Source of the DNA: Hahella sp. CCB-MM4
GTDB lineage: Bacteria > Pseudomonadota > Gammaproteobacteria > Pseudomonadales > Oleiphilaceae
Length of the DNA: 64,000 nucleotides
Direction: 5' to 3'
Assembly: GCF_002260525.1 (NCBI RefSeq)
Contig: NZ_MRYI01000004.1
Coordinates: forward strand, 62,001-126,000
The position numbers and the translations under genes were made by a program. The notes beneath the pieces are model-generated. The model searched no databases. It saw nothing but the letters and a program-made list of their open reading frames with translations, and had not been told where the DNA came from. How positions within the stretch are numbered: the first letter of the stretch is position 1; each line of letters starts with the position of its first letter. Shown in pieces: positions 38,272 to 62,765 of the stretch.

Positions 38272-40371
38272 ATGGACATCACTTTTGGTGGCATCAGCCA
38301 CGCGACCGGCGCCCTGGTATATTTACTGATCATGGGGTTGCTGGCCCAAGGGTATTTGCGCCGGTTAACTGACCGGGCTCTTCTGGCCGCCTGTCTTTTG
38401 ACGTCTGTCTGGCTGGGAGTCATTGCCAGTCAGCAAGCCTTTAACGCTCCCTCTTTTTTCATTCGTTATACCTTTGAAATACTTCGCAATGCAGCGTGGA
38501 TAGGAGTTCTATTTGTACTTCTCGGCGTTAGATTAAGCCGCAAGTCCAGCTCCGGGAACACTCAGTACTGGCTAGGCCTGATCATCACAGGCATTCTCAT
38601 CTTCATGCTGATAGCGGGCATGGCCAGAGGAATGTTTGGAGCCATCGTCTTCAGCGGCCAGACGCTGTTGACAGGGCAAATCGTGGTGTCTCTGGGAGGC
38701 TTGGTCCTTCTGGAGCAGGTCTGGAGAAACGTCACCGGCTATAAACGCCAGAATACGCGATATCTCTGCCTGGGCATCGGAACCTTATTCGTCTACGACT
38801 TTTTCATGTATTCCGACGCCCTGCTCTTCAACCAGATATCCCAGCCATTCTGGGACGCCAGAGGAGCGATCAACACTGTCTGTGCTCCGTTGATTGCGTT
38901 GACCATGGTCAACACCCGAAAGCAGCCACTCGATGTCCAGATTTCGCGTCAGTTTGTCTTCCACACCAGCGCCCTTGTATTTGCCGGTCTCTACCTCCTG
39001 ATCATGGCTGCCGGGGGTTATTACATCAATACTGCCGGCGGGGAATGGTCCGAGGCCCTGCTGATTATATTCTTCTTCTCAGCAACCGTTTTCCTCATCC
39101 TGCTTGCCGGATCCGCACGCCTCAGAGCCAGACTGATGGTCTTTATCAGTCAGCATTTCTTCAACTACAAATATGACTACCGTGAGGAGTGGCTGAATGC
39201 CACCGGACTGGTCACATCTCTGGAGAGTAATGACGACCTGGAAAAGAAAGTCATACAGCTCCTTGCGGAGCCCGTTGAAAGTCAGGCAGGTGCGCTTTGG
39301 CTCAAAAACGAAGATAACAATTTTTCAGCCTCGACGTTCTGGAACATGCCGGAAATCAAGTTTGACCGGATTGATAATAATTCAGAACTGGTTGATTTTA
39401 TGCGGCAGAGCGACTGGATTATCAATCTTAAGGAATACCAGCTCGACCCTACCCGCTATCACTTGATGGAGATACCCGACTGCCTTTGGACCACCCATAA
39501 ACCATGGCTACTGGTTCCATTATTTATCGGGGATGCTCTCATAGGTTTTGTGCTTATTTCAGAGCCACTGGCCAAAATTGAACTGAACTGGGAAAACTAC
39601 GACCTTCTAAAGATCGTCGCACGTCAATGTGCCAGCTATATTGCCCTGCTGCATGCCCAGAACCGGCTATCCGAATCCAAGCAGTTTGAGGCGGTTAACC
39701 GCACCTCGGCCTTTATGGTACATGACCTTAAAACCATCATCGCCCAGCTTTCCCTGTTGGTAAATAACGCGGGCAAGCATAAATCCAACCCCGTGTTCGT
39801 GGATGATATGATCACCACCACTGAGCACGCTCTCAAGAAAATGAACCACCTGTTGCTGCAGATTCGCAATCCTGTCACCCAGGACGATGTCACCCAGGTA
39901 GATGTGATCGATCTGCTGAAAGATATCATTCAACAGGAATCCCGCCGGGAACCGATACCCAGTTTTACCGGCGATGACAGCCAGGTCATTATTTCTGCGG
40001 ATAGGGAAAAGCTCAGAAGTGTGTTTGTCCACATGATCCAGAATGCTCAGGATGCTACAGACAAATCCGGTGATGTTACCGTTTCGGTCAAAAAGAGTAC
40101 TGGATGGATTGTTGTCTTTGTTCAGGACACAGGCATCGGCATGAGCGACGAATTCATCAAAGCCGAGCTATTCAAGCCCTTTACAAGTACCAAAGGGCTG
40201 ACCGGGATGGGCATCGGCGTTTATCAAAGCCGCGAGTACATCCGCAAACTTGGTGGTTCCATTGACGTCACCAGCGAACCCGGAGTTGGCACCTGCTTCA
40301 CAATCAAGATCCCATTGGTCAACACCAGTTCGGGCTATGGGAATTACAAAGGGGCAGCATATGGAAGTTGA
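38272..40371 (+). CDS. prsK: PEP-CTERM system sensor histidine kinase PrsK
   Basis: A 699-residue membrane histidine kinase. The N-terminal third contains several hydrophobic helices (about residues 10-290), then a GAF-like domain (about 310-470), then the kinase core. The likely phosphoacceptor is His484 in AFMVHDLKTIIAQLSLL; the ATP-binding domain has VFVHMIQNAQDAT, DTGIGMS and TSTKGLTGMGIGVY. This layout, with PrsR encoded next, matches the PrsK family found in genomes with exosortase A. The signal it senses is unknown; envelope or polysaccharide state is the usual guess. The gap to prsR is 138 bases. Confidence 0.9.
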   Translation: MDITFGGISHATGALVYLLIMGLLAQGYLRRLTDRALLAACLLTSVWLGVIASQQAFNAPSFFIRYTFEILRNAAWIGVLFVLLGVRLSRKSSSGNTQYWLGLIITGILIFMLIAGMARGMFGAIVFSGQTLLTGQIVVSLGGLVLLEQVWRNVTGYKRQNTRYLCLGIGTLFVYDFFMYSDALLFNQISQPFWDARGAINTVCAPLIALTMVNTRKQPLDVQISRQFVFHTSALVFAGLYLLIMAAGGYYINTAGGEWSEALLIIFFFSATVFLILLAGSARLRARLMVFISQHFFNYKYDYREEWLNATGLVTSLESNDDLEKKVIQLLAEPVESQAGALWLKNEDNNFSASTFWNMPEIKFDRIDNNSELVDFMRQSDWIINLKEYQLDPTRYHLMEIPDCLWTTHKPWLLVPLFIGDALIGFVLISEPLAKIELNWENYDLLKIVARQCASYIALLHAQNRLSESKQFEAVNRTSAFMVHDLKTIIAQLSLLVNNAGKHKSNPVFVDDMITTTEHALKKMNHLLLQIRNPVTQDDVTQVDVIDLLKDIIQQESRREPIPSFTGDDSQVIISADREKLRSVFVHMIQNAQDATDKSGDVTVSVKKSTGWIVVFVQDTGIGMSDEFIKAELFKPFTSTKGLTGMGIGVYQSREYIRKLGGSIDVTSEPGVGTCFTIKIPLVNTSSGYGNYKGAAYGS

Positions 40372-40509: not shown

Positions 40510-41865
40510 GTGAATAAACGATTGCTAATCATTGAAGATGATCCTGGTCTGCAAAGCCAGATGCGGTGGTGTTTTGAGGACACAGAAGTATTTGTTGCAG
40601 ATGACAGGGAATCCGCCATCTCCCAATTAAGAAGAGTGGAACCCCAGGTTGTCACGCTTGACCTCGGACTTCCTCCTGACCCGGGCGGTTCCAGCGAAGG
40701 CTTTGCCATCCTTCAGGAAATCCTCACATTGTCACCAATGACAAAAATTATTGTCGTGACGGGCCGTGAAGAGCGCGAAAATGCGGTCAAAGCGATTGGC
40801 CTGGGCGCTTGTGACTTTTACCAGAAGCCGTTGGATGCAGACATTCTGTCGTTTGTTGTTAACCGGGCATTCCGGCTATATGAGCTGGAACAGGAAAACC
40901 GCGAACTCTCCGAAAGCAAGTCCACCTCCCGGTTAAAAGGGGTTATTGCTTCAAGCCCTCCCATGCTGGAGGTGTGCAGAACCGTTGAGAAAATAGCGCC
41001 GGCGGATGTAACCACCTTGATTCTGGGGGAAACCGGAACCGGGAAAGAGGTTCTGGCCCGGGCTGTTCATGATCTCAGCCCTCGCCGTGATCACAACTTT
41101 GCCGCCATCAACTGTGCAGCAATCCCCGAGAACCTGCTGGAGAGTGAACTGTTCGGCTACGAAAAAGGCGCTTTTACCGGCGCTACCCAAATGAAAAAGG
41201 GCAAAATCGAGTTGGCCAACGGTGGCACGCTGTTCCTGGATGAAATCGGGGACATGCCCATGCCGCTGCAGGCAAAAATGCTCCGCTTCCTGCAGGAACG
41301 GGTAATCGAACGGGTGGGCGGTACCAAGGAAATTCCAGTGGATGTGCGGGTGGTCTGTGCAACCCATAGAGATGTCAGGCAGCTGATCACTGAAGGCAGT
41401 TTCCGGGAAGACTTATACTATCGCGTCAGCGAAATCACCATAGAGGTCCCACCTTTACGCTCCAGGCAGGGAGATGCTTTAGTCATTGGCCAGGCCCTGC
41501 TTAAATCGTTTTCCAAGCAACATGACAAAGGCTCCCTGTCATTTAGCGAGGATGCCGCACAGGCCATCCAGAACTACGAATGGCCCGGCAACGTCAGGGA
41601 GATGATCAACAAGGTCAAGCGGGCTACGATCATGTGTGAAGGCAAACGTGTAGTGGCTTCAGATCTTGAGCTTGGTCATGTTGAGGGCGGCGCCAAGGAA
41701 GTGTTTAATCTTCGCCAGGTACGCGAGGATGCGGAAAAAGCCGCCATCAAACAGGCTCTGGAATCGTGCGAGTACAATATGTCCAAAGCAGCTCGTCTGC
41801 TTGGCGTCACCCGCCCCACCCTATACAGCCTTACTGACAAGTACAATCTTACCACTACTCAATAA
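40510..41865 (+). CDS. prsR: PEP-CTERM-box response regulator PrsR (sigma-54 activator)
   Basis: A 451-residue NtrC-type regulator starting at GTG 40510. Receiver domain residues about 1-125 include IIEDD and the likely phosphoacceptor Asp51 (VTLDLGLPP). The AAA+ domain (about 145-375) has Walker A GETGTGKEV, the sigma-54-contacting GAFTGA motif, and LFLDEIGDM. A Fis-type helix-turn-helix closes the protein (NMSKAARLLGVTRPTLYSL). With PrsK it should activate sigma-54-dependent promoters of PEP-CTERM and exosortase-associated genes; three such promoter sequences are visible downstream in this window (50333, 52238 and 54104). Confidence 0.93.
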   Translation: MNKRLLIIEDDPGLQSQMRWCFEDTEVFVADDRESAISQLRRVEPQVVTLDLGLPPDPGGSSEGFAILQEILTLSPMTKIIVVTGREERENAVKAIGLGACDFYQKPLDADILSFVVNRAFRLYELEQENRELSESKSTSRLKGVIASSPPMLEVCRTVEKIAPADVTTLILGETGTGKEVLARAVHDLSPRRDHNFAAINCAAIPENLLESELFGYEKGAFTGATQMKKGKIELANGGTLFLDEIGDMPMPLQAKMLRFLQERVIERVGGTKEIPVDVRVVCATHRDVRQLITEGSFREDLYYRVSEITIEVPPLRSRQGDALVIGQALLKSFSKQHDKGSLSFSEDAAQAIQNYEWPGNVREMINKVKRATIMCEGKRVVASDLELGHVEGGAKEVFNLRQVREDAEKAAIKQALESCEYNMSKAARLLGVTRPTLYSLTDKYNLTTTQ

Positions 41866-51433: not shown

Positions 51434-52195
51434 TTATGCGCGCTTACGACGTGCACTGAATCCTAAACCTGCTGCTGCAACACCCAGAATAGCCAGTGAA
51501 GCAGGCTCTGGTACGAATACCGCGCTCACGTCACCAGTAACTACTTGAGTACCAGTCAATTCGAATGTATCGAAATCACCGTCTACGTTAACTTTGATGT
51601 AGAAAGGATCTGGAGCAACGAAGTAGTCAGAACCGTCTGCAGTCAGAGCGAAGTTATCAAACAGCAGATCGAAGAAACCGCCAACACCAGTCAACAGACC
51701 AGTACCGTAAACCAAGTCATTAGAAGTGGCCAACAGCAAGTCATCACCGTTGTCTGCCAATGAAATTGGATCCAGAGCAGTAGCGCCCAGAGTACCGTCA
51801 GTATCGTTGTTTGGATCCAACCAAATGCTTACGAAACCGTTACCACCAGTGAACTGGTTAATTCCACCGCCGATATCAGCTACAGTACCGTCAGAAGTGA
51901 ACATAGCGTAGATTTTGTAAGTATCGCCGATTTGAGAATCTGCACCCAGATCCTGAGTACCGTCGCTACCAAACAGCTGACCAAAAGTAGCGAATGCAGA
52001 AGTTACGAAATTTCCGCCGCCAGTGAAGGTCAGGTTTTCCTGGTAACCGCCATTCAGTTTGTCGGCAGTCAGAACGGTTCCACCATATGGAGTCTCGTCA
52101 ACCTGGAAATCCAGAAACCCAGCATTTGCTTGGAAAGAGAATGCCGCGCATAAGGTCGCTACTCCAGCAGCGTTTAACGCACTTTTCTTGAACAT
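51434..52195 (-). CDS. PEP-CTERM surface protein (exosortase substrate)
   Basis: A 253-residue exported protein. I start at the ATG at 52195, with TAAGGAG upstream, giving a normal signal peptide (MFKKSALNAAGVATLCAAFS...ANAG). The C-terminus has the exosortase sorting signal: VPEP at about residue 228, a hydrophobic helix, then the basic end ARRKRA. The mature part (about 25-225) is rich in Gly, Asp, Asn and Thr and acidic, with no domain I recognise. Exosortase A, encoded at 57263, should cut at the PEP motif. A sigma-54 promoter precedes it. Confidence 0.92.
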   Translation of the reverse strand: MFKKSALNAAGVATLCAAFSFQANAGFLDFQVDETPYGGTVLTADKLNGGYQENLTFTGGGNFVTSAFATFGQLFGSDGTQDLGADSQIGDTYKIYAMFTSDGTVADIGGGINQFTGGNGFVSIWLDPNNDTDGTLGATALDPISLADNGDDLLLATSNDLVYGTGLLTGVGGFFDLLFDNFALTADGSDYFVAPDPFYIKVNVDGDFDTFELTGTQVVTGDVSAVFVPEPASLAILGVAAAGLGFSARRKRA

Positions 52196-52237
52196 CGAAT
52201 TGCTCCTTAACAATGTGTAGTTATACGCCATTGACAA

Positions 52238-52253
52238 AGCAGTCTGCGTGCCA
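52238..52253 (-). promoter_or_regulatory. Sigma-54 (-24/-12) promoter of the PEP-CTERM gene
   Basis: Read on the minus strand, TGGCACGCAGACTGCT matches the sigma-54 consensus TGGCACG-N4-TTGCT at all but one position, with GG and GC 12 bases apart. Transcription would start about 33 bases before the start codon at 52195. PrsR, the GAFTGA-bearing activator encoded at 40510, is the natural candidate activator. Confidence 0.75.
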
Positions 52254-52454
52254 ATTTTTATTTTTTCTTTATTATCATACACTTAAAAATATTTACCCTT
52301 ACCAAACTTTAGGTCAATGTAAGATTTACTGACACCCTGTTCCGCTTATGCAGCAGCTCCCCGATAACGATTAGAGCTGTTGTGCGGCAGCTATCTTTGC
52401 CTATACTTTTAGCTGCTAGTTAACCTCAATATAAGCAATAAATGGATTATTAAC

Positions 52455-53248: not shown

Positions 53249-54037
53249 TCATTCGCGGACCAATTGTTTAACAGTGAACCAGAGGTTTCCCAGAAATTCG
53301 TATATGACCGTTTCACTTAAAGCCAATGCTGTGGCATCAGGGGTAAATACATGATATGAAAGAGTTTTACCCCGACTGGTTAGATGCCCGACAGGCACAG
53401 GGATGACTTGAATTCCTACACTGTCAAAAATATTAACAGCCCTTTTCATATGATCTGCCGAGGTAATCAGCAAATTTGATTTGCCCACACTTACCGGCTT
53501 TACGAGATCCGCTTCAGATTCGGTATCCTTACTTCCGGCCAGCACTTCTATACGCTTTCGATCCAGGCCGAGTGACACCAGGAAATCGGCGGAATAATCA
53601 GGATGTGAAGCTTCGAATCCCGGCACCTTATGTCCGGAAAGTATGACCTTTGCATCGGGATAAACCCTGGATAATCGGAATGCTTCAACCACCCTGTACA
53701 ATGAGCATGGCGCAATTCTAGATACTTCCGGAAGCTTTTCATCTTCATTGTTCCAGCATCCCAGCACCATAATATTATCCACGTGGATAGGTGGGTCATT
53801 AAATGCCGGGTATTCCAATTCCAGTGGACGGAGCAATGAGCCTGGTATAATTGGAATGGAAAATAACAGCAGAAGAAAAAGTGCACTTCCAAAAAACCTG
53901 CCTGACAGCAAGTACCTCTGTTTTACAAAATGAAAGTACAGACCACAAAACAGCAGGAAGACAACAATGGGCACCGGCGAAACAAATGACCCGATCAGCT
54001 TTTTAAAAAAGAAGAGAGTATCCATACATTCCATCAT
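53249..54037 (-). CDS. YdcF/SanA/ElyC-type DUF218 membrane protein
   Basis: A 262-residue protein with two N-terminal transmembrane helices (FVSPVPIVVFLLFCGLYFHF and FGSALFLLLLFSIPIIPG) and a DUF218 domain (about 85-235). IMVLGCWNNEDE, RVYPDAKVILSGHK, and LITSADHMKRAVNIF fit this family. Relatives (ElyC, SanA) affect envelope polysaccharide and peptidoglycan precursor use. The start at 54037 lacks a good ribosome site; an in-frame ATG at 54025 is possible. Confidence 0.85.
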   Translation of the reverse strand: MMECMDTLFFFKKLIGSFVSPVPIVVFLLFCGLYFHFVKQRYLLSGRFFGSALFLLLLFSIPIIPGSLLRPLELEYPAFNDPPIHVDNIMVLGCWNNEDEKLPEVSRIAPCSLYRVVEAFRLSRVYPDAKVILSGHKVPGFEASHPDYSADFLVSLGLDRKRIEVLAGSKDTESEADLVKPVSVGKSNLLITSADHMKRAVNIFDSVGIQVIPVPVGHLTSRGKTLSYHVFTPDATALALSETVIYEFLGNLWFTVKQLVRE

Positions 54038-54103
54038 GTCAGAATAATTTACAAATATTTTTTATGGTACAATTTACTTCTTCAAAAACATAGGCTTACA
54101 TTT

Positions 54104-54119
54104 TGGCTTATTTTTTGCT
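54104..54119 (+). promoter_or_regulatory. Sigma-54 (-24/-12) promoter of the Tat/PqqD/HprK/exosortase operon
   Basis: TGGCTTATTTTTTGCT has TGGC and TTGCT with GG and GC exactly 12 bases apart, the sigma-54 geometry. Transcription would start near 54130, about 70 bases upstream of the first gene of the operon. The flanks are AT-rich. Confidence 0.65.
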
Positions 54120-54200
54120 TTAATAGTTTTATAACTTTTTACCAATAACACACAGTTTTAGTCGTACAATAGCCGCTAAACGTCATTCTAGGGTAAACCG

Positions 54201-54911
54201 ATGGAATCGAATAAGCAGGATAACATTGCTGAGTCTGCGCTAGGCAAATCCTCCAGACGCCAGTTTTTACAACGCGCCTCAGCCGGTGCAGTACTTGCAA
54301 CCATTCCCACCAAGTCAGTCTGGGCAGGTGGTGGTGGAATTACCCAGTCAATTGTTGCCTCAGGCCATGGCTCTGACTGGGCTGATGGAATAACAATCCA
54401 GTTACGTTCTCCAGGCTACTGGAAAAATCACTTTCCTTCGAACGAAAAAAATCTGTCTTTCAAGTCGGTTTTTGGCTGTGAGCCATTGAGCGAAAATAAT
54501 TTTTCAGGTTTTTGTAAGATCAAGTCGAATGACAATTACTACTTCGACCTGACTTTGTTTGATATCGCCAAAGATGCTGAAGGGGATTCAGGTGCCGTTG
54601 TTGATAACTCAAGCACAGATCTCGACGGAAGTCAGAATCCTGACTTTTTGAAAACCAAAGATGGGGATAACTACTTCGATCTGTCCGGCCCTCATAACGT
54701 CAACAGGTACATGGTCTGCATGTATATGAATGCGCTTTACCATGGCACCAGAGGGATCTATTACCCAATCACAAATGTTTTTGGGACGGTTGATGCATTT
54801 GCCCAGTATTTGTGTGAAAAGGCGTTAATCAGTTCTTATGAACTCGCTTCTTCTTTGGAATATATCATCCAAAACTGCGACGTGGGCACCAATACCTGCA
54901 ACGTATCCTGA
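54201..54911 (+). CDS. Tat-exported protein of unknown function, candidate substrate of the downstream cassette
   Basis: A 236-residue protein with a twin-arginine signal (SSRRQFLQRASAGAVLA, Arg19-Arg20; likely cleavage after Ala42 in SVWA). Tat export suggests folding or cofactor loading before transport. The mature part has SPGYWKNHFPS (about 70-80), a motif found in several uncharacterised bacterial surface proteins, six or so cysteines (for example FGCEP, GFCKI, NCDVGTNTC) and Asp/Asn-rich stretches. The C-terminus ends CNVS. It is the first gene of the operon, three bases before the PqqD-like gene, and may be the client of that chaperone and kinase. I cannot name a family. Confidence 0.75.
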   Translation: MESNKQDNIAESALGKSSRRQFLQRASAGAVLATIPTKSVWAGGGGITQSIVASGHGSDWADGITIQLRSPGYWKNHFPSNEKNLSFKSVFGCEPLSENNFSGFCKIKSNDNYYFDLTLFDIAKDAEGDSGAVVDNSSTDLDGSQNPDFLKTKDGDNYFDLSGPHNVNRYMVCMYMNALYHGTRGIYYPITNVFGTVDAFAQYLCEKALISSYELASSLEYIIQNCDVGTNTCNVS

Positions 54912-54914
54912 TCA

Positions 54915-55157
54915 ATGGAACTAGCACATTGCAAATTGACAAAAGGGGTGGACATCCACCCCTTTTCTGATGGATCAGGTTGTGTGTTTTTTAATACAAA
55001 TACTGGTGAAACCATCGGCATAGAGCTAAGGTTAGAGCAGATAGAAGAAGCCTTGACTGTATATTTCAGTCAAAATACCTCTGAGAAATTCCATAACCCA
55101 CTGAAAGGCTTGATTGAAAAGGGCTTCATTAGTACCGAAAACCAGCAGCCCTGTTGA
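54915..55157 (+). CDS. PqqD-like peptide chaperone (HPr-rel-A system type)
   Basis: An 80-residue PqqD-fold protein. GSGCVFFNTNTGETIGIEL followed by a helix (LEQIEEALTVYF) and LIEKGFIS fits the winged-helix-like PqqD/RRE fold that binds leader peptides. In many genomes a PqqD member of this kind is encoded beside an HprK-related kinase and exosortase A (the HPr-rel-A system). It follows the Tat gene by three bases without its own good ribosome site, so it is probably translationally coupled. Its peptide partner is unproven. Confidence 0.8.
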   Translation: MELAHCKLTKGVDIHPFSDGSGCVFFNTNTGETIGIELRLEQIEEALTVYFSQNTSEKFHNPLKGLIEKGFISTENQQPC

Positions 55158-55247
55158 TTCCGCCCGGTCGACGATATTTGAAAGATTGACCATGCGGCAG
55201 CAAGGAAGTAGCAACCAAGACCATCAGAGAACAAAAGCATTTTTTTC

Positions 55248-56120
55248 ATGGCCCTTCAGAATTTTTGCCTGAACCTTTACCCTTTCTCGTTCAATATTCA
55301 AACCAACTTAAAGCTCGTTAGAGACAACCTATACCGTTTATATCCTGGCCAGGTTTCACTAAATAGCACCCAGGTTACGGACTATTCACTCTCACTGAGC
55401 AAAGGATCTGGTTTCAGACGGCTGATAAAACCTCAAGCACGCTTTTTCTGCGATCAAAAGGAACCGTTCAAGCCTCTAAGACAAGAACAAGGTTATGCAC
55501 TTCTTGAGTGGGGTATGAACTGGACCATTGCAGCCAATGAGATGCAATATGTCATTGCCCATTCGGCAGTTCTGGCCAAGGACGACAAGGCTATACTATT
55601 TCCGGCTCCACCGGGATCAGGTAAAAGTACACTGACCGCCTACCTCGCATTTAAAGGTTGGCGCCTGCTATCAGATGAAATGGCACTCATTAACCCTGAC
55701 ACCAATATAGTGACGCCATTCGTCCGTCCCATCTGCCTGAAGAACCGCTCTATCGATCTGGCTAAGTCCTGGTTTCCTGAAGGACACTTTTCGTCTGTCG
55801 CGCACAATACCCACAAAGGCGATGTCGTTCATTTATCTCCACCAGAGCAAAGTTGGAAAAACAACAAATCTAATGCCCGGATCGTTGCGGTGGTTTTCCC
55901 AAACTACAGAGCGGGAAAAGAGCTGGAAATCTACCAGTTGAATAAAACCCAGGGGTTTATGCAGTTTGCAGAAAACGCCTTTAACTTTGGAGTCAACGGC
56001 GCAACAGGATTCAGAACCCTGACCAAAGTTATAGAAAATGCAGAGTCTTTTGAGATTTTTTATAGTAATCTCGAGGAAGTCATTGAGTTTCTGGAACAAG
56101 ATATCATCGATCATGCCTGA
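55248..56120 (+). CDS. HprK-related kinase A
   Basis: A 290-residue P-loop protein related to HPr serine kinase. The Walker A loop is PAPPGSGKSTLTAYLAFKG (about residues 120-138), followed by WRLLSDEMALI, the Walker-B-like acidic segment of HprK proteins. The N-terminal 110 residues are specific to this subgroup and lack the HPr-kinase N-domain. No HPr/PTS gene is nearby, so the target is probably a protein or peptide presented by the PqqD-like partner. Its stop overlaps the start of the nucleotidyltransferase. Confidence 0.85.
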   Translation: MALQNFCLNLYPFSFNIQTNLKLVRDNLYRLYPGQVSLNSTQVTDYSLSLSKGSGFRRLIKPQARFFCDQKEPFKPLRQEQGYALLEWGMNWTIAANEMQYVIAHSAVLAKDDKAILFPAPPGSGKSTLTAYLAFKGWRLLSDEMALINPDTNIVTPFVRPICLKNRSIDLAKSWFPEGHFSSVAHNTHKGDVVHLSPPEQSWKNNKSNARIVAVVFPNYRAGKELEIYQLNKTQGFMQFAENAFNFGVNGATGFRTLTKVIENAESFEIFYSNLEEVIEFLEQDIIDHA

Positions 56121-57216
56121 TATAACGGCGTCTGACATTATCCGTCTATACCTTAAGCCAGAGTTTGCCACCACACTGAGTGCTGACCAGTGGCAGAAAG
56201 CTATTCTGATTTTGCGCTACCAACAATTGCTGGCCCGTTATGCCAAACATTTCAGAAAAAAAGGTATATTTGATCAACTACACGAGTATGCCAGGCATCA
56301 TCTGACAAATGCAGAAATTATCGCCGATAAGCAATATCAGCAGGTTCACTATGAGGCAGCCCTGCTCAAACAACAGATTGGCAATATTGGTTCGCATTTG
56401 GTTTTCCTGAAAGGAGCTGGATATTCTCTATCAGGCCTGCCGGTAGGTGTCGGAAGAACTTACAGTGATATCGATATATTGGTGGACAAACAATATATCA
56501 GGGAAATTGAGAAAACCATGACACTTCATGGCTGGCTCCCTGAAGAGATGGACGAGTACGACCAGAAATACTATAGGCAATGGGCGCATGAAATCCCGCC
56601 CATGAAGCATGCTACCCGGGGAACACTGATTGATATTCACCACAATATCATCCCCATCGTTTCCATGCGTGCACCTGATATCAATATCCTTTTTGACCAC
56701 ACCGTGATGACTTCAGATGGTTATCAGGTGTTGGACAAAGCGGCGATGACGTTACACAGCCTTATCCATCTTTTTTACAACGAAGAGTTTAAATATGGAT
56801 ACCGTGACCTGATGGACATCCATATTCTGATGTCAGGCAACTCAGAAGACTATTGGCAACAACTACTCGACCTGGCGAAAACCTGTGGCTTTGAAAAAGA
56901 ACTCTACTTTGCATGCCGGTATGCTGAAGGGTTAATGCAAACAGGAGTGCCGGATTTTGTTACAACGCAGCTAGCTCATCATAAGAGCCGCATGCAGTCT
57001 GTTCTCGATTTTATGTTCACAAACCTGCTTTCACCCAGTCACCCGTTTGTACGCCGCCCCATTTATCCGCTTGCAGTGTTTATGGGCTTTATTAGAGGAC
57101 ATCGCCTGAAAATGCCTCTCTCGATACTGGTCTATCACAGTATGAATAAGGCTTGGCGTTTAACCGTTGAGTATCTGCTTGGTAACACCTTCTTCGACAA
57201 ACAGAAAACCCAATAA
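56113..57216 (+). CDS. Nucleotidyltransferase family protein (NTP_transf_5 type)
   Basis: A 368-residue protein of the uncharacterised nucleotidyltransferase family. LVFLKGAGYSL and GRTYSDIDILVDK (about 98-125) supply the Asp-x-Asp metal site; the rest is helical. I start at the ATG at 56113, which overlaps the kinase stop; a longer frame from 56038 lies inside the kinase gene. Members are often found with HprK-like kinases and PqqD-like proteins in peptide-modifying clusters, including some lasso-peptide loci. The reaction here is not known. Confidence 0.82.
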   Translation: MPDITASDIIRLYLKPEFATTLSADQWQKAILILRYQQLLARYAKHFRKKGIFDQLHEYARHHLTNAEIIADKQYQQVHYEAALLKQQIGNIGSHLVFLKGAGYSLSGLPVGVGRTYSDIDILVDKQYIREIEKTMTLHGWLPEEMDEYDQKYYRQWAHEIPPMKHATRGTLIDIHHNIIPIVSMRAPDINILFDHTVMTSDGYQVLDKAAMTLHSLIHLFYNEEFKYGYRDLMDIHILMSGNSEDYWQQLLDLAKTCGFEKELYFACRYAEGLMQTGVPDFVTTQLAHHKSRMQSVLDFMFTNLLSPSHPFVRRPIYPLAVFMGFIRGHRLKMPLSILVYHSMNKAWRLTVEYLLGNTFFDKQKTQ

Positions 57217-57262: not shown

Positions 57263-58792
57263 ATGGAAGCACTCTCCAACTTCTTCGAGGACATTAAAAG
57301 CAACAGGTCTCTCGTGTTACTGATATCGGCTGTTTCTGTTCTCTGGTACGCAGGGTTTCACGAGGGTGTCGACACTGCTATAACGATCTGGCTGAACAAT
57401 GATATTTTTAATCACTGCGCATTTGTTCTGCCCTTTGCTGCCTATCTGATATATCGGAAAAAAGAAGAGCTGACGCTCACCAAACCGACTCCTGCTTACC
57501 TTATTCTGCTCCCTTTATTGCTGATATCATTTATCTATCTTTTCGGAAAAGCCGGCGATATTAATGTGTTGATGCATCTGGCGGCTTTTTCTTTTATTCC
57601 TACCGCCATCATCCTCTGTATAGGGTTTCGGTCGTCCATTACGATCCTCTACCCCCTGATATTCTTCTTTTTTGCGATCCCTATCGGCGAGCAGCTGATT
57701 CCGAACCTGCAGGATATTGCAGCCAAGTGGTCGGTAGTTCTTTTAAATCTGTCTTCCGTCCCTGTCTTCAGGAACGGTTTATATATTGATATTCCCCAGG
57801 GGCGCTTCCTTGTTGCAGAAGCTTGTTCTGGTATCAGTTTCACCATTGTTTCAGTTGTCATCGGAAGCCTGCTGGCTCATCTGAACTACACAAAGCCCTG
57901 GAAAAAAGGCCTCTTCATTCTGATCTCTTTCCTGGTTCCTATTGCAGCGAATGTTTTACGAGTATATGGAATTATCATCATCGCCTATTCCTCGGATATG
58001 GAGTATGCCGTCGGTGCAGACCATCTGATCTATGGATGGCTGTTCTTCAGCATCGTTATCTTTCTATTGATACTGATGGGGGAAATTGGGCGGGAACCCC
58101 AGTCAGCCTTTACACTTCCTGTTCAGCAAAAGAGAGAGAGCGGCGTAGACTATTCCGCCGCCTGGAATGCCGACACATTTAAAAAGCCGGGGTTACTGAT
58201 TTCAGGGGTTTTACTGGCCCAGTTAGCATTTGGCTATCTATGGATTGATGCCAAAAGGTCCAGCGACTATAGCCATGTAGAAATTTCAATTCCTGATGCA
58301 TCTCCAGTAGTTTCGCCAAAATGGCAGCCGGTGTTTGAGGGCGCTACTCAGAAACTTCATACGTCTTTCCCCTATCAGTCTGAGCAGATAGAGTTATATC
58401 TGGCCTGGTTCGGTACCGGGAGCGACGGAGAACTTGCCTCATACCTTAACAGAGACTTTGACATAGAGCGCTGGAGCCTTATTCAGCAGCGTACAGTTAA
58501 CTTTGGTAGTCCCGTTCACGATGCCAGTCTCTTGACGATTACCTCTCCCGATGGAGAGAAAAGAATTGTGCTCAGCTGGTACCTGCTAAGCAATTTCCAG
58601 TCATCATCCAAAACCATGACCAAGCTTAGCCAAACAGCCCAGTTTCTGTTAACTGGCCATCAGGAAGGCGCTTATGTGGCGTTTTCAATTAAAGCAAGTG
58701 ATAACAATCAGACTGAGGCAGAGCAAACGCTCATCAATGCGGCGCAAGAGGTTTTTCCAGCGATCGCCGAAGACCTCCCTTTTACAAGGTAG
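57263..58792 (+). CDS. xrtA: Exosortase A fused to an EpsI domain
   Basis: A 509-residue multi-spanning transpeptidase-like protein. Residues about 15-275 hold the exosortase fold with 8 or so helices and the catalytic triad: Cys188 in VAEACSGISF, Arg233 in ANVLRVYG and His254 in GADHLIYGW. After a linker, one further helix (about 310-330) leads to an extracytoplasmic EpsI/DUF3485 domain (about 335-505). Exosortase A cuts PEP-CTERM proteins at the membrane and is tied to exopolysaccharide production. XrtA-EpsI fusions are known. It is fifth in the operon from 54201. Confidence 0.94.
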   Translation: MEALSNFFEDIKSNRSLVLLISAVSVLWYAGFHEGVDTAITIWLNNDIFNHCAFVLPFAAYLIYRKKEELTLTKPTPAYLILLPLLLISFIYLFGKAGDINVLMHLAAFSFIPTAIILCIGFRSSITILYPLIFFFFAIPIGEQLIPNLQDIAAKWSVVLLNLSSVPVFRNGLYIDIPQGRFLVAEACSGISFTIVSVVIGSLLAHLNYTKPWKKGLFILISFLVPIAANVLRVYGIIIIAYSSDMEYAVGADHLIYGWLFFSIVIFLLILMGEIGREPQSAFTLPVQQKRESGVDYSAAWNADTFKKPGLLISGVLLAQLAFGYLWIDAKRSSDYSHVEISIPDASPVVSPKWQPVFEGATQKLHTSFPYQSEQIELYLAWFGTGSDGELASYLNRDFDIERWSLIQQRTVNFGSPVHDASLLTITSPDGEKRIVLSWYLLSNFQSSSKTMTKLSQTAQFLLTGHQEGAYVAFSIKASDNNQTEAEQTLINAAQEVFPAIAEDLPFTR

Positions 58793-59710: not shown

Positions 59711-62638
59711 TTACCAACCTTCTGGTTTTATGGCAAAGGACCTTTCCATTTTCGTGACATTCCCTTGATTGTCTCTGACAGATACAAAGAGTGTACCCTG
59801 ACTAAGTGAGTAAATTGAGTTCTGTAATGTCATTTCATATACGCCGTCTGATACCTGACGGAATCCCTCAGCCAGCTCAGTCCCCGGAGCTTTGCCATCG
59901 ACTTCAAAGTCCGCCGTAATGTGCAAAGAGGATACATTCACCCCAGTGTATGCATCCGCCACACCGACGAGAATGCGCGTTAACGGGTAAAAGGAGTTTC
60001 CTGGCGCAGGATAAGTAACAGCAAGCGTGGGCCTTGTTTCGTCAAGGAACCAGCCATACCCTTCCCGCTCAGTGCCTTTTGCGGTATCAATGGGACATCC
60101 CAGATCAATCCAACGGGCAAAAGTCATTTTTTCATCAATAGTCAATGGTGCGACACCGGAATCTACTGGAGGCATAATTGTTCCTGTATAGTCCAGATCA
60201 GCCTGATTGGCGATAACCCCTTCAGGTAAGGTGTCAGGATCTCCTGCCACACTCTCGGTTGGGTGGTCGCTATTGCTCCAGCCATCCATTCGTTCGCCAA
60301 ATATTTTCCACATCAGCAAACTGCGACGACTTTGGAACTCTCTTACATACCGACTCGCATTGGTTTGCCTCCACAACGGCTGATTACTGACCCTCAGCAC
60401 TGGTGGAATCCCCCAATTCGCGCTTTGGTCGTCGCACAACCTTGCATAATCCACGGGAACAAAGCTCTCTTCAATGATACTGGTATCATCAAAGGCCAGC
60501 TCAGCAGGAGCGCCCCCATAAGCATTCGAATTGTGGCAACCTACACACTTCTCTTGAAGTACAGGGCGGATATTCTGATAAAACTCCACATTCACAAGAG
60601 ACTCAGGTTCAAATTTAACGGTTGGCTGATCATCACTGTTCTTCGTGATTAGCGGTGTATTTTTAGTCAGATCCCAAACCTGATAGTCCGGCCGACCAGC
60701 GTAGGTATTTCTGAAGTCTACCGCAGGCTTACTATGTGCGTGACAGCCGCCACAGTCATTGCGAACTTCGCCGGGACGAACCTGATGCCAAGTTTGAGCC
60801 ATATTCAGCACGACGCCATTTTTATCTATCGTCTGGAATGTAAATGGTGTGTCTGCCGGAATTTTGGCAAGAAAGCTGGTGTCAGTCGTTCCATTGGAAT
60901 CCACAACCAGGCTGCCATCGGAATTAAACTTCCTTAGCGGTATTTCACCCAGGATTCTCAATCGCTCGCCGGCATGATTTCGGAAAAAAGCCGCTCTGTT
61001 GAAATGGGATTCTGGCCCGTACCCTTTATGGGTGAATGGTTCCATGGCAATAATTCTGACAGCCCAGATATCGTCCTCGGTATATCTGCCGGCATCTGCA
61101 CCCTGCAGATTCCAGTTGGTGTTCTGATTGTTCTTGCTGGTATTAAAAGCATCCAATCCTCCGAACTGGTAGTCATCCCTCACCTCTCCCCCAGGCATGG
61201 TTTCCCGGTTCAGAAAACTGGAGGTCCCAATCAGACCGTAAGGGGTGCCTTCTGGTAGTTCCGGATGAACACTTCCGGTATTTGGCAGCCAGTCGATTTG
61301 GGCAGGTTCATCAACGCCATATATATCCCGGTATTTTACAACAGCACGCGGCCAGGCTTCGTTGTATTCCGGATCATTCTTTATCAATACCAATTGTTGC
61401 GAATCATATACGGTATCCATGCCCGCGATCATGTAGATCCCTGAATCCACCGCGGGAAAGGGCGACGGTCTGTTCAGTTTATTGACGGGCCCATCAGACC
61501 AGACCACGAGAAGGTTATTTCCCGGAGCAGCAGAAGGATGTGTATATTTGCCCTGTCCCGGAGTTGCCGATGTATCAAACGCAGTAGCTGACGGTGTCAG
61601 GGCATACATGCCTTTAGGGGTAAAGGGCATGCGAAAGTTGGTCAGATTCCCATTAACCGTGTGCTCAATTTTGGGATTTTCCTCTCTGATGGCACTAAAG
61701 AATTTGGGTTCGCCGTATAGATTTTCATCGGAGAACGTCAATAGTGAGCCAAATCCAAAGTTATTCTTGTTGTAGTAGTCTTCTACTACGATTCTTCCGT
61801 CACTGACCTGAGTGGTGAAATGGAATACCAAAGCATGACCAAACGCACTCACCACCGGGTCCCAGTGGCGTCCATCCGGATAGATTGACCACAATCCCCA
61901 CAGCCTCACATCTCTTAGCCCCTGAGACTCATAACTACTAAATACAATCCGGCCATCCTTTAAGGGAGTTGGATGAAGCGCAGACCCCAAGGTCATAGGC
62001 GCTATGGCCGTTACATTGCTACCATCCTCATCCATCACATAGAGCTGCATGGTTGGACTGGTGTAGCTCTTGGTAGGCTTAAACCCATTCCTGTTGCTGG
62101 TAAATACAATCTTGTTTCCTGCTATAGGAGCCGGGCCGGTATTTAATATCCCATATCCCAGAGAGTTATATATGCTTGCTGGATTAACGGGATTATCTTC
62201 ATTCCAATTACCAGAGCCGGTATTCGGGGTAAATTCCTGAAAGGTCAGTCTTATGATTTCTCTGGTTTCGAGATTGATCTTGTATATATCAGCCCCTTCC
62301 AAAGGAAGATTGTCGCGCTGGGAGTTTAAGCTGGAAGTCCGAACATCCGGAAAGAAGCTGTAGAAAACCCACTTTCCGTCAAAGGAAACATAGGGATCGG
62401 TAACAGCACCATTTTCCGTATCCACAAGAATTTCCTCTGAACCATCAGGGTGAAGCAGAACCAGGTCTGAGCCCTGCTCAACTCTCGCAGGGAAGCCCGC
62501 TTCAGGCCAGTTGATATGTTCAGAGTCACCATGCCTGGGCTGCTTGACATAAACGATGTCGTAATCGACGGGGGCTGCCAGCGTTTCCAGACTCCAAAAA
62601 AATACTGCCAGGGATATTAAGACATTTAACCTAATCAT
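59711..62638 (-). CDS. Exported beta-propeller protein with two c-type heme sites
   Basis: A 975-residue exported protein. I use the ATG at 62638 with AGAGGTG upstream, which gives a clean signal peptide (IRLNVLISLAVFFW...LAAPVDYD). Residues about 25-460 carry TolB/PD40-like propeller blades (DPYVSFDGKWVFYSFF, NKIVFTSNRNGF, DGRIVFSSY). Two CxxCH heme-binding motifs follow, DCGGCHAHS and KCVGCHNS (about 640-730), in a segment resembling the alpha subunit of hydrazine synthase-like proteins. The end looks Ig/cadherin-like. It is probably periplasmic or surface-exposed with redox function; no partner gene is visible. Function unknown. Confidence 0.8.
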   Translation of the reverse strand: MIRLNVLISLAVFFWSLETLAAPVDYDIVYVKQPRHGDSEHINWPEAGFPARVEQGSDLVLLHPDGSEEILVDTENGAVTDPYVSFDGKWVFYSFFPDVRTSSLNSQRDNLPLEGADIYKINLETREIIRLTFQEFTPNTGSGNWNEDNPVNPASIYNSLGYGILNTGPAPIAGNKIVFTSNRNGFKPTKSYTSPTMQLYVMDEDGSNVTAIAPMTLGSALHPTPLKDGRIVFSSYESQGLRDVRLWGLWSIYPDGRHWDPVVSAFGHALVFHFTTQVSDGRIVVEDYYNKNNFGFGSLLTFSDENLYGEPKFFSAIREENPKIEHTVNGNLTNFRMPFTPKGMYALTPSATAFDTSATPGQGKYTHPSAAPGNNLLVVWSDGPVNKLNRPSPFPAVDSGIYMIAGMDTVYDSQQLVLIKNDPEYNEAWPRAVVKYRDIYGVDEPAQIDWLPNTGSVHPELPEGTPYGLIGTSSFLNRETMPGGEVRDDYQFGGLDAFNTSKNNQNTNWNLQGADAGRYTEDDIWAVRIIAMEPFTHKGYGPESHFNRAAFFRNHAGERLRILGEIPLRKFNSDGSLVVDSNGTTDTSFLAKIPADTPFTFQTIDKNGVVLNMAQTWHQVRPGEVRNDCGGCHAHSKPAVDFRNTYAGRPDYQVWDLTKNTPLITKNSDDQPTVKFEPESLVNVEFYQNIRPVLQEKCVGCHNSNAYGGAPAELAFDDTSIIEESFVPVDYARLCDDQSANWGIPPVLRVSNQPLWRQTNASRYVREFQSRRSLLMWKIFGERMDGWSNSDHPTESVAGDPDTLPEGVIANQADLDYTGTIMPPVDSGVAPLTIDEKMTFARWIDLGCPIDTAKGTEREGYGWFLDETRPTLAVTYPAPGNSFYPLTRILVGVADAYTGVNVSSLHITADFEVDGKAPGTELAEGFRQVSDGVYEMTLQNSIYSLSQGTLFVSVRDNQGNVTKMERSFAIKPEGW

Positions 62639-62765
62639 ATATAAACACCTCTGGGTGCACGTCCACTGTAACTGCAGCCCCAATCATATGTAGGTCACTT
62701 TTTGATCTAAATAAGCCTTTTACACCTTTATAGTAATCAATTGGTGGTGGAATATTTCAGTTCGT

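Follow-up and report, generated by a model that had tools for sequence, protein, structure and literature searches.

The cassette and its assignment

A stretch of 64,000 nucleotides (nt) from the gammaproteobacterium Hahella sp. CCB-MM4 (contig NZ_MRYI01000004.1, positions 62,001 to 126,000; the whole stretch is referred to as the window, and its own numbering is used throughout) carries at 54201-57216 four genes on the forward strand. They encode, in this order, a protein with a signal for the twin-arginine translocation (Tat) pathway, a PqqD-like protein, an HprK-related kinase and a nucleotidyltransferase (Table 1). The kinase is a clear member of the HPr-rel-A system, which is represented in NCBIfam by TIGR04352 (HprK_rel_A) and TIGR04353 (PqqD_rel_X, described as 'HPr-rel-A system PqqD family peptide chaperone'). 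The PqqD slot and the gene order of the window agree with that system; its PqqD-like protein differs in that it is unmatched by TIGR04353. To the kinase and the peptide chaperone named in NCBIfam, gene order adds a candidate substrate: the assignment of this role to the Tat protein encoded beside PqqD is well supported by the arrangement of the genes.

The source genome measures 6.66 Mb, and Hahella ganghwensis is a close relative (kinase 83% identical). An earlier sequence-only reading of this DNA had described the four genes as consecutive and tightly packed. Consecutive they are, with 3 nt between the stop codon of the Tat gene and the start of the PqqD-like gene and an 8-nt overlap of the kinase and nucleotidyltransferase genes; tightly packed is only partly right because a gap of 90 nt separates the PqqD-like and kinase genes. 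The start of the nucleotidyltransferase was taken to be the ATG at 56113, internal to a longer open reading frame (ORF) that opens at 56038.

Linkage of the Tat gene to the cassette

TIGR04352 scores above its cut-off in 61 of 398 genomes sampled from the phylum, representing 32 genera. The 67 kinase loci analysed, the window included, stem from 59 of these 61 genomes together with eight further loci from genome contigs, and counts of loci are not counts of independent events because many of them come from related genomes. Sequence upstream of the kinase was available for 65 loci (L036 and L098 have none that is usable), and in 58 of these a Tat-signal ORF occupies the slot next to PqqD and the kinase, 57 times on the kinase strand and once in a divergent PqqD operon (L056). 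Four of the remaining seven loci (L101, L103, L104 and L105) have their PqqD gene elsewhere in the genome, with a Tat ORF beside that PqqD; the Tat gene is therefore tied to PqqD more than to the kinase. The sequence-only reading had put forward a Tat client of HPr-rel-A as its own conjecture, to be abandoned if the Tat gene were absent from most such loci; the survey shows the gene to be a regular component of them, which supports the conjecture.

Chance neighbourhood can be rejected as an explanation on two grounds. A strict Tat detector, which misses true cases and of whose hits one (L095) is probably a chance ORF, finds a signal in 43 of 64 slots versus 43 of 988 control windows of equal size elsewhere in the same loci. 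The reciprocal search points the same way: profile A5, built from Tat proteins of the gamma/Rhodocyclaceae type alone, matched 48 of 369 genomes of the class, and among the best 20 loci returned, one of which is the window, each of the other 19 has a kinase downstream in the same orientation, and 18 of them have a clear PqqD. Of these 19 loci, 17 belong to genomes absent from the building of the profile. A second profile, A4, for the type with an SCWxSF motif, matched 43 of the 398 genomes, namely 39 of the 61 with the kinase (22 of which had contributed sequences to the profile) and 4 of the remaining 337; these four belong to one family (f39) and have weaker kinase matches.

As a side observation, one genome already endowed with a full cassette has a second precursor-PqqD pair (L106, on G185:C66).

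A Tat protein with the build of a precursor

The Tat protein of the window has the features of a Tat substrate: a twin-arginine signal (SRRQFLQ..KSVWA) with a hydrophobic stretch and an A-x-A-like end, and a TatC in the same genome. A search for TatC in 36 genomes, of which 34 belong to the 61 with the kinase (this one among them) and two to family f39, found it in every one, in 34 cases above cut-off. Directly behind the signal follows a ladder of serines, S50-x3-S54-x3-S58, then SPGYWKNH and, at the C-terminus, TCNVS.

When the leader, defined as the 30 residues from the twin arginine, is compared pairwise with the remaining protein in three groups of precursors, two of the groups display the conservation typical of ribosomally synthesized and post-translationally modified peptides (RiPPs), in which the leader is better kept than the body. 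In group g1 the median identity is 0.53 for the leader and 0.30 for the rest, and the leader is ahead in 297 of 325 pairs; in the Hahella-like set the values are 0.47 and 0.31, and the leader is ahead in 21 of 21 pairs. Ordinary Tat enzymes are expected to follow the reverse pattern, with a body better conserved than the signal. Judged by these alignments the Tat protein is itself the precursor-like component, and the earlier remark that no classic RiPP precursor is present was too cautious. In the A4 alignment the twin arginine of the leader and one lysine, one proline and one threonine are invariant in all 23 rows, as is a C-x-x-S near the C-terminus.

Serine motifs recur in the mature parts as well. 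Among 63 precursors, 46 have the pattern [ST]CxxS within 35 residues of the C-terminus (shuffled sequences would give 1.1), and in g3, the group of the window, S-x3-S-x3-S stands behind the signal in 29 of 34 proteins (1.7 expected) and is followed by SPGYW and LNA. Both Hahella Tat proteins end in [ST]CxxS, which may be a coincidence because their closest relatives do not have the motif. Cysteine, which had been singled out as a notable feature, can be ruled out as the general modified residue, since it is absent from L033-L035, three proteins closely related to that of the window, while the serine motifs are conserved. A C-terminal serine can be ruled out as the general acceptor too. Scans of the mature parts with Pfam and NCBIfam yielded no family above cut-off, and profiles of the two precursor groups, run against PDB sequences, returned rows at chance level only. 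One precursor ORF (L065:6091-6339, minus strand) ends early at 82 residues in an otherwise normal cassette and is either truncated or an assembly error.

The kinase and the nucleotidyltransferase

In 66 of 67 loci the kinase has kept GxGK[ST] and, behind it, D[DE]; this pattern was used in place of a stricter P-loop pattern, which missed 23 of the 67. The order PqqD slot, kinase, NTP_transf_5 that characterises this sample is found in the window, where the translated nucleotidyltransferase contains the motif SDIDI. NTP_transf_5 follows directly downstream in 46 of the 67 loci and lies within the fetched stretch in 55. In genome G185 kinase and nucleotidyltransferase are fused into one ORF of 706 residues (L061:7944-10064). 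PDB sequence searches with the kinase and the nucleotidyltransferase gave no useful match. It may be added that the P-loop of the L061 kinase reads PQAGK, as against GxGK in the other 66.

The PqqD-like protein

Among the 61 kinase genomes, 48 score above cut-off for PqqD_rel_X (TIGR04353), and the 80-residue protein of the window aligns, by iterated alignment, in the slot occupied elsewhere by proteins of this type. Genome-wide searches with PF05402 and TIGR04353 miss it. An hhalign comparison of six divergent members with clear members gave a probability of 80% in local and 59% in global mode, with an E-value of about 1.4e-5 in this one comparison. An AlphaFold2 (AF2) model computed from five divergent members only reached a pLDDT of 78, and its three best PDB matches in Foldseek are chains of TbiB1 (5v1u/5v1v; probability 0.94-0.97, E-value 0.05-0.08, TM about 0.5), the RiPP recognition element (RRE) of a lasso-peptide system that was solved together with its leader. 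Since slot alignment, hhalign and a TbiB1-like predicted fold concur, the protein is likely, though not proven, to be a shortened PqqD-like RRE; the sequence-only reading had called it a PqqD-like chaperone. For the survey of PqqD genes clear TIGR04353-type seeds were used, a profile from four Hahella-type seeds having reached 8 loci only.

Promoter, neighbouring genes and exosortase

A sigma-54 promoter had been proposed ahead of the cassette, and a -24/-12 site is indeed found there. PEP-CTERM genes have been reported to carry a two-part box in which a first motif ending in TTTACA is separated by a spacer of 32-92 nt from a -24/-12 site (PMC1569441, in part). The region upstream of the cassette has all of these elements: the box-like motif TGTCAGAATAATTTACA has the fitting TTTACA end and lies 50 nt from the -24 element. 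The pattern TGTCR-N7-TTACA occurs three times in the window (0.15 expected); the second copy precedes pepA on the minus strand (52318-52334, with the -24/-12 site of pepA at 52253, minus strand), and the third, inside the nucleotidyltransferase gene, is probably due to chance. Of the 62 precursor genes in the sample, 28 have a sigma-54-like site of equal score in the 300 bases ahead of them, as against 2.6 expected by mononucleotide shuffling, and many of these sites are far from the precursor start. Thirteen lie at most 135 bases from the start, and 8 of them have TTTACA at the right distance (0.46 expected). All 13 belong to gamma/Rhodocyclaceae-type loci and L105, and none to the g1 (SCWxSF) loci, so that regulation probably differs between the precursor groups. 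In Aquincola, pepA is reported to depend on RpoN1 (PMC9850573, in part). In Hahella, PrsK/PrsR and sigma-54 probably activate the cassette at the same time as the genes of PEP-CTERM proteins.

The association with exosortase had been overstated. XrtA scores above cut-off in 35 of the 398 genomes, 25 of them with the kinase, which leaves 36 of the 61 kinase genomes without such a match, and an XrtA-like ORF was present in the fetched stretch of only two of the 67 loci, both from Hahella. Exosortase is therefore rejected as a general partner.

Table 1. Cassette genes, upstream elements and neighbouring genes in window coordinates
Feature	Position	Strand	Basis
Tat-signal protein, putative precursor/substrate, 236 residues	54201..54911	+	TIGR01409 17.9 bits, barely above cut-off of 16.7; family alignments
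Divergent, shortened PqqD-like RRE (candidate), 80 residues	54915..55157	+	Slot synteny, iterated alignment, hhalign, AF2/Foldseek
HprK-related kinase A	55248..56120	+	TIGR04352 312 bits, cut-off 200
NTP_transf_5 nucleotidyltransferase, 367 residues from ATG at 56113	56113..57216	+	PF14907 129.5 bits, cut-off 31.2
Sigma-54 type -24/-12 promoter TGGCTTATTTTTTGC	54104..54118	+	8/10 consensus positions
PEP-CTERM-box-like motif TGTCAGAATAATTTACA, predicted PrsR site	54037..54053	+	Pattern TGTCR-N7-TTACA
Exosortase A (XrtA) with EpsI domain, neighbour	57263..58792	+	TIGR03109 289 bits, cut-off 208
PepA-type PEP-CTERM protein, predicted co-regulated	51434..52207	-	NF033554 181 bits, cut-off 80
PrsK histidine kinase	38272..40371	+	TIGR02916 714 bits
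PrsR sigma-54 response regulator, predicted cassette activator	40510..41865	+	TIGR02915 704 bits
PrsT	44067
Exosortase-system acyltransferase	50453

A radical SAM branch

A related cluster was found in a genome of family f39 (G036, L111:2029-6496), the one locus of this branch in which the full gene set was checked. It combines a radical SAM/SPASM protein with a PqqD above the Pfam cut-off, an HprK-like kinase below the TIGR04352 cut-off and, on the opposite strand, an NTP_transf_5 gene. Two tandem small proteins of 93 and 95 residues share the leader RR.LLKLGAYVPPAI and have cores of the form SCKP[ST]AC[RK]PC. Similar leader peptides occur in L112 and L114, and PqqD-like and kinase ORFs in L113 and L115. 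By its gene content the L111-type cluster is probably an undescribed RiPP family, and a similar Tat-type leader therefore occurs together with textbook RiPP enzymes.

A model for HPr-rel-A and its alternatives

The interpretation that we favour, with a probability of roughly 0.6, is that HPr-rel-A is a RiPP-like system in which the Tat signal acts as leader and kinase and nucleotidyltransferase modify serine before Tat export. What the sequences show in its favour is that the genes co-occur in a recurring order, that two of three groups have a conserved leader, that the kinase motifs are intact and that promoter elements are present. The steps we infer comprise leader binding, phosphorylation and its sites, the product of the nucleotidyltransferase, export and function. 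The Tat signal would first serve as a leader, bound by the PqqD-like RRE and brought by it to the kinase. The kinase would then phosphorylate a serine of the Tat protein in the cytoplasm, candidate acceptors being the ladder behind the signal and, in other groups, the C-terminal C-x-x-S. To this phosphate the nucleotidyltransferase may add a further group, either a nucleotidyl residue or a sugar, the latter as reported for pseudomycoidin, after which the Tat pathway would export the modified protein and signal peptidase remove the leader. Tat would be the natural route for such a product because it moves folded, finished proteins. In Hahella the product would belong to the exopolysaccharide/surface-protein state, since the cassette is probably co-activated with PEP-CTERM proteins. 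Taken as a complete scheme, with a PqqD-like RRE docking on the Tat signal, phosphate-based groups on serine and export of the folded protein through Tat, the model is more tentative and falls a little short of even odds.

The chemistry is modelled on phospho(glyco)-lasso peptides such as paeninodin and pseudomycoidin, whose clusters resemble the cassette with its HPr-kinase homologue and predicted RRE-like partner. Lasso kinases phosphorylate serine, and in pseudomycoidin, where a nucleotidyltransferase accompanies the kinase as in the cassette, that enzyme adds hexoses to the phosphate; nucleotidyltransferases are reported from lasso clusters without a family name (PMC8498205, in part). In contrast to lasso clusters, the precursor of the Hahella cassette would be a large Tat-signal protein, and a C-terminal serine acceptor is not general. 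The lasso enzymes may belong to the same family as that of the cassette (PF14907), as the sequence-only reading had put it for some lasso clusters. No lasso cyclase and no B2 protease turned up in the nine proteins from the cassette and its surroundings that were scanned.

A number of results weigh against the proposed scheme. Pfam and NCBIfam contain no family that matches the 80-residue protein at E<=1, its model has no PDB match at E<=0.001 in Foldseek, where the top matches have E-values of 0.05-0.08, and an AF2 run in which the Tat protein was read through into PqqD as one chain gave a pLDDT of 41 and no usable interface. In precursor group g2 leader and remainder are almost equally conserved (0.72 versus 0.69, leader ahead in only 24 of 36 pairs). 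No single acceptor residue is common to every group, and a C-terminal serine, the residue on which lasso kinases are known to act, ends only 5 of 63 precursors, both Hahella proteins among them. NTP_transf_5 was not found in 12 of the 67 fetched stretches. Individual loci depart from the arrangement: in L059 (genome G081) precursor, PqqD and kinase are split over three contigs, L095 has PqqD and kinase with no precursor found, L038 has no recognised precursor and a split kinase ORF, and in L086 the precursor lies about 455 bases away from PqqD. The relatedness of many loci within the 32 genera and the genomes shared between the rows and the matches of A4 count on the same side.

Tat chaperones that bind signal peptides, such as the redox-enzyme maturation proteins, are well established. 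An unlikely alternative is that the PqqD-like protein has a task of this kind, as a chaperone devoted to Tat proofreading, with kinase and nucleotidyltransferase regulating it or releasing its substrate and no covalent modification taking place; the Tat gene staying with PqqD even where the kinase is elsewhere would suit such a role. RRE folds, however, are known to present leaders to modifying enzymes, and the top structural matches of the PqqD-like model are those of TbiB1 with its leader; the conserved serine motifs of the mature part and the existence of a radical SAM/SPASM version (L111) also speak for modification. Slightly less plausible still is that kinase and nucleotidyltransferase have as substrate a precursor of an exopolysaccharide or lipid and that the Tat protein is an exported partner merely travelling with the cluster. 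The cassette of the window does lie beside PrsK, PrsR and XrtA genes, and recurrent nearby ORFs resemble, by eye, the glycosyltransferases and asparagine synthases of exopolysaccharide regions, but a peptide binder between the Tat gene and the kinase is then hard to account for, profile A5 recovered a kinase in 19 of 19 loci examined, and the leader is better conserved than the body in two of three groups. It is very improbable that the final product is a small RiPP excised from the Tat protein, of which the remainder would be a long leader or follower: the short cysteine-containing precursors of the radical SAM variant and the conserved C-terminal C-x-x-S of g1 and g2 would fit, but no lasso-B2-type protease was among the nine proteins scanned and precursors of the gamma type are conserved along the mature part (serine ladder, SPGYW, LNA).

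Known systems and wider meaning

Besides lasso peptides, a parallel to the favoured model, in which the export signal doubles as leader, is offered by bufferins and other RiPPs modified by MNIO enzymes. Their Sec signal peptide is presumed to contribute to the recognition sequence, with export following modification, and premature export is named as a problem for such Sec-signal precursors (PMC12452194, in part). They differ from HPr-rel-A by using Sec instead of Tat and an MNIO enzyme with its partner instead of kinase, PqqD and nucleotidyltransferase; the words 'Tat' and 'twin' are absent from the main text of that paper (PMC12452194). The SynChlorMet cassette (ScmC/ScmD/ScmF) and other radical SAM/PqqD systems can also be compared. 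The window kinase is weakly similar to ScmC, far below the Scm cut-offs, and none of the nine proteins scanned at the Hahella cassette is a radical SAM protein; L111 shares an HprK-like kinase, PqqD and radical SAM with such systems, again with matches far below the Scm cut-offs. The literature searched, which left most subscription papers outside its scope, contained no description of an HPr-rel-A substrate and, judging by the titles listed, none of a Tat-leader RiPP, and the papers that pair PqqD with HPr kinase or exosortase deal with lasso peptides.

If the model is correct, a single signal peptide would be both the leader for modification and the ticket for export, and Tat-exported phospho- or phosphoglyco-proteins would form a widespread class, with mature parts of at least three seemingly unrelated kinds and a radical SAM branch. 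An HPr-type kinase would also have a role outside sugar control, linked to PEP-CTERM regulation.

Downstream of the exosortase gene, finally, the window encodes on the minus strand (59711-62650) a protein of 979 residues that has the motifs CGGCH and CVGCH and resembles hydrazine synthase alpha only weakly (44 bits against a cut-off of 800).

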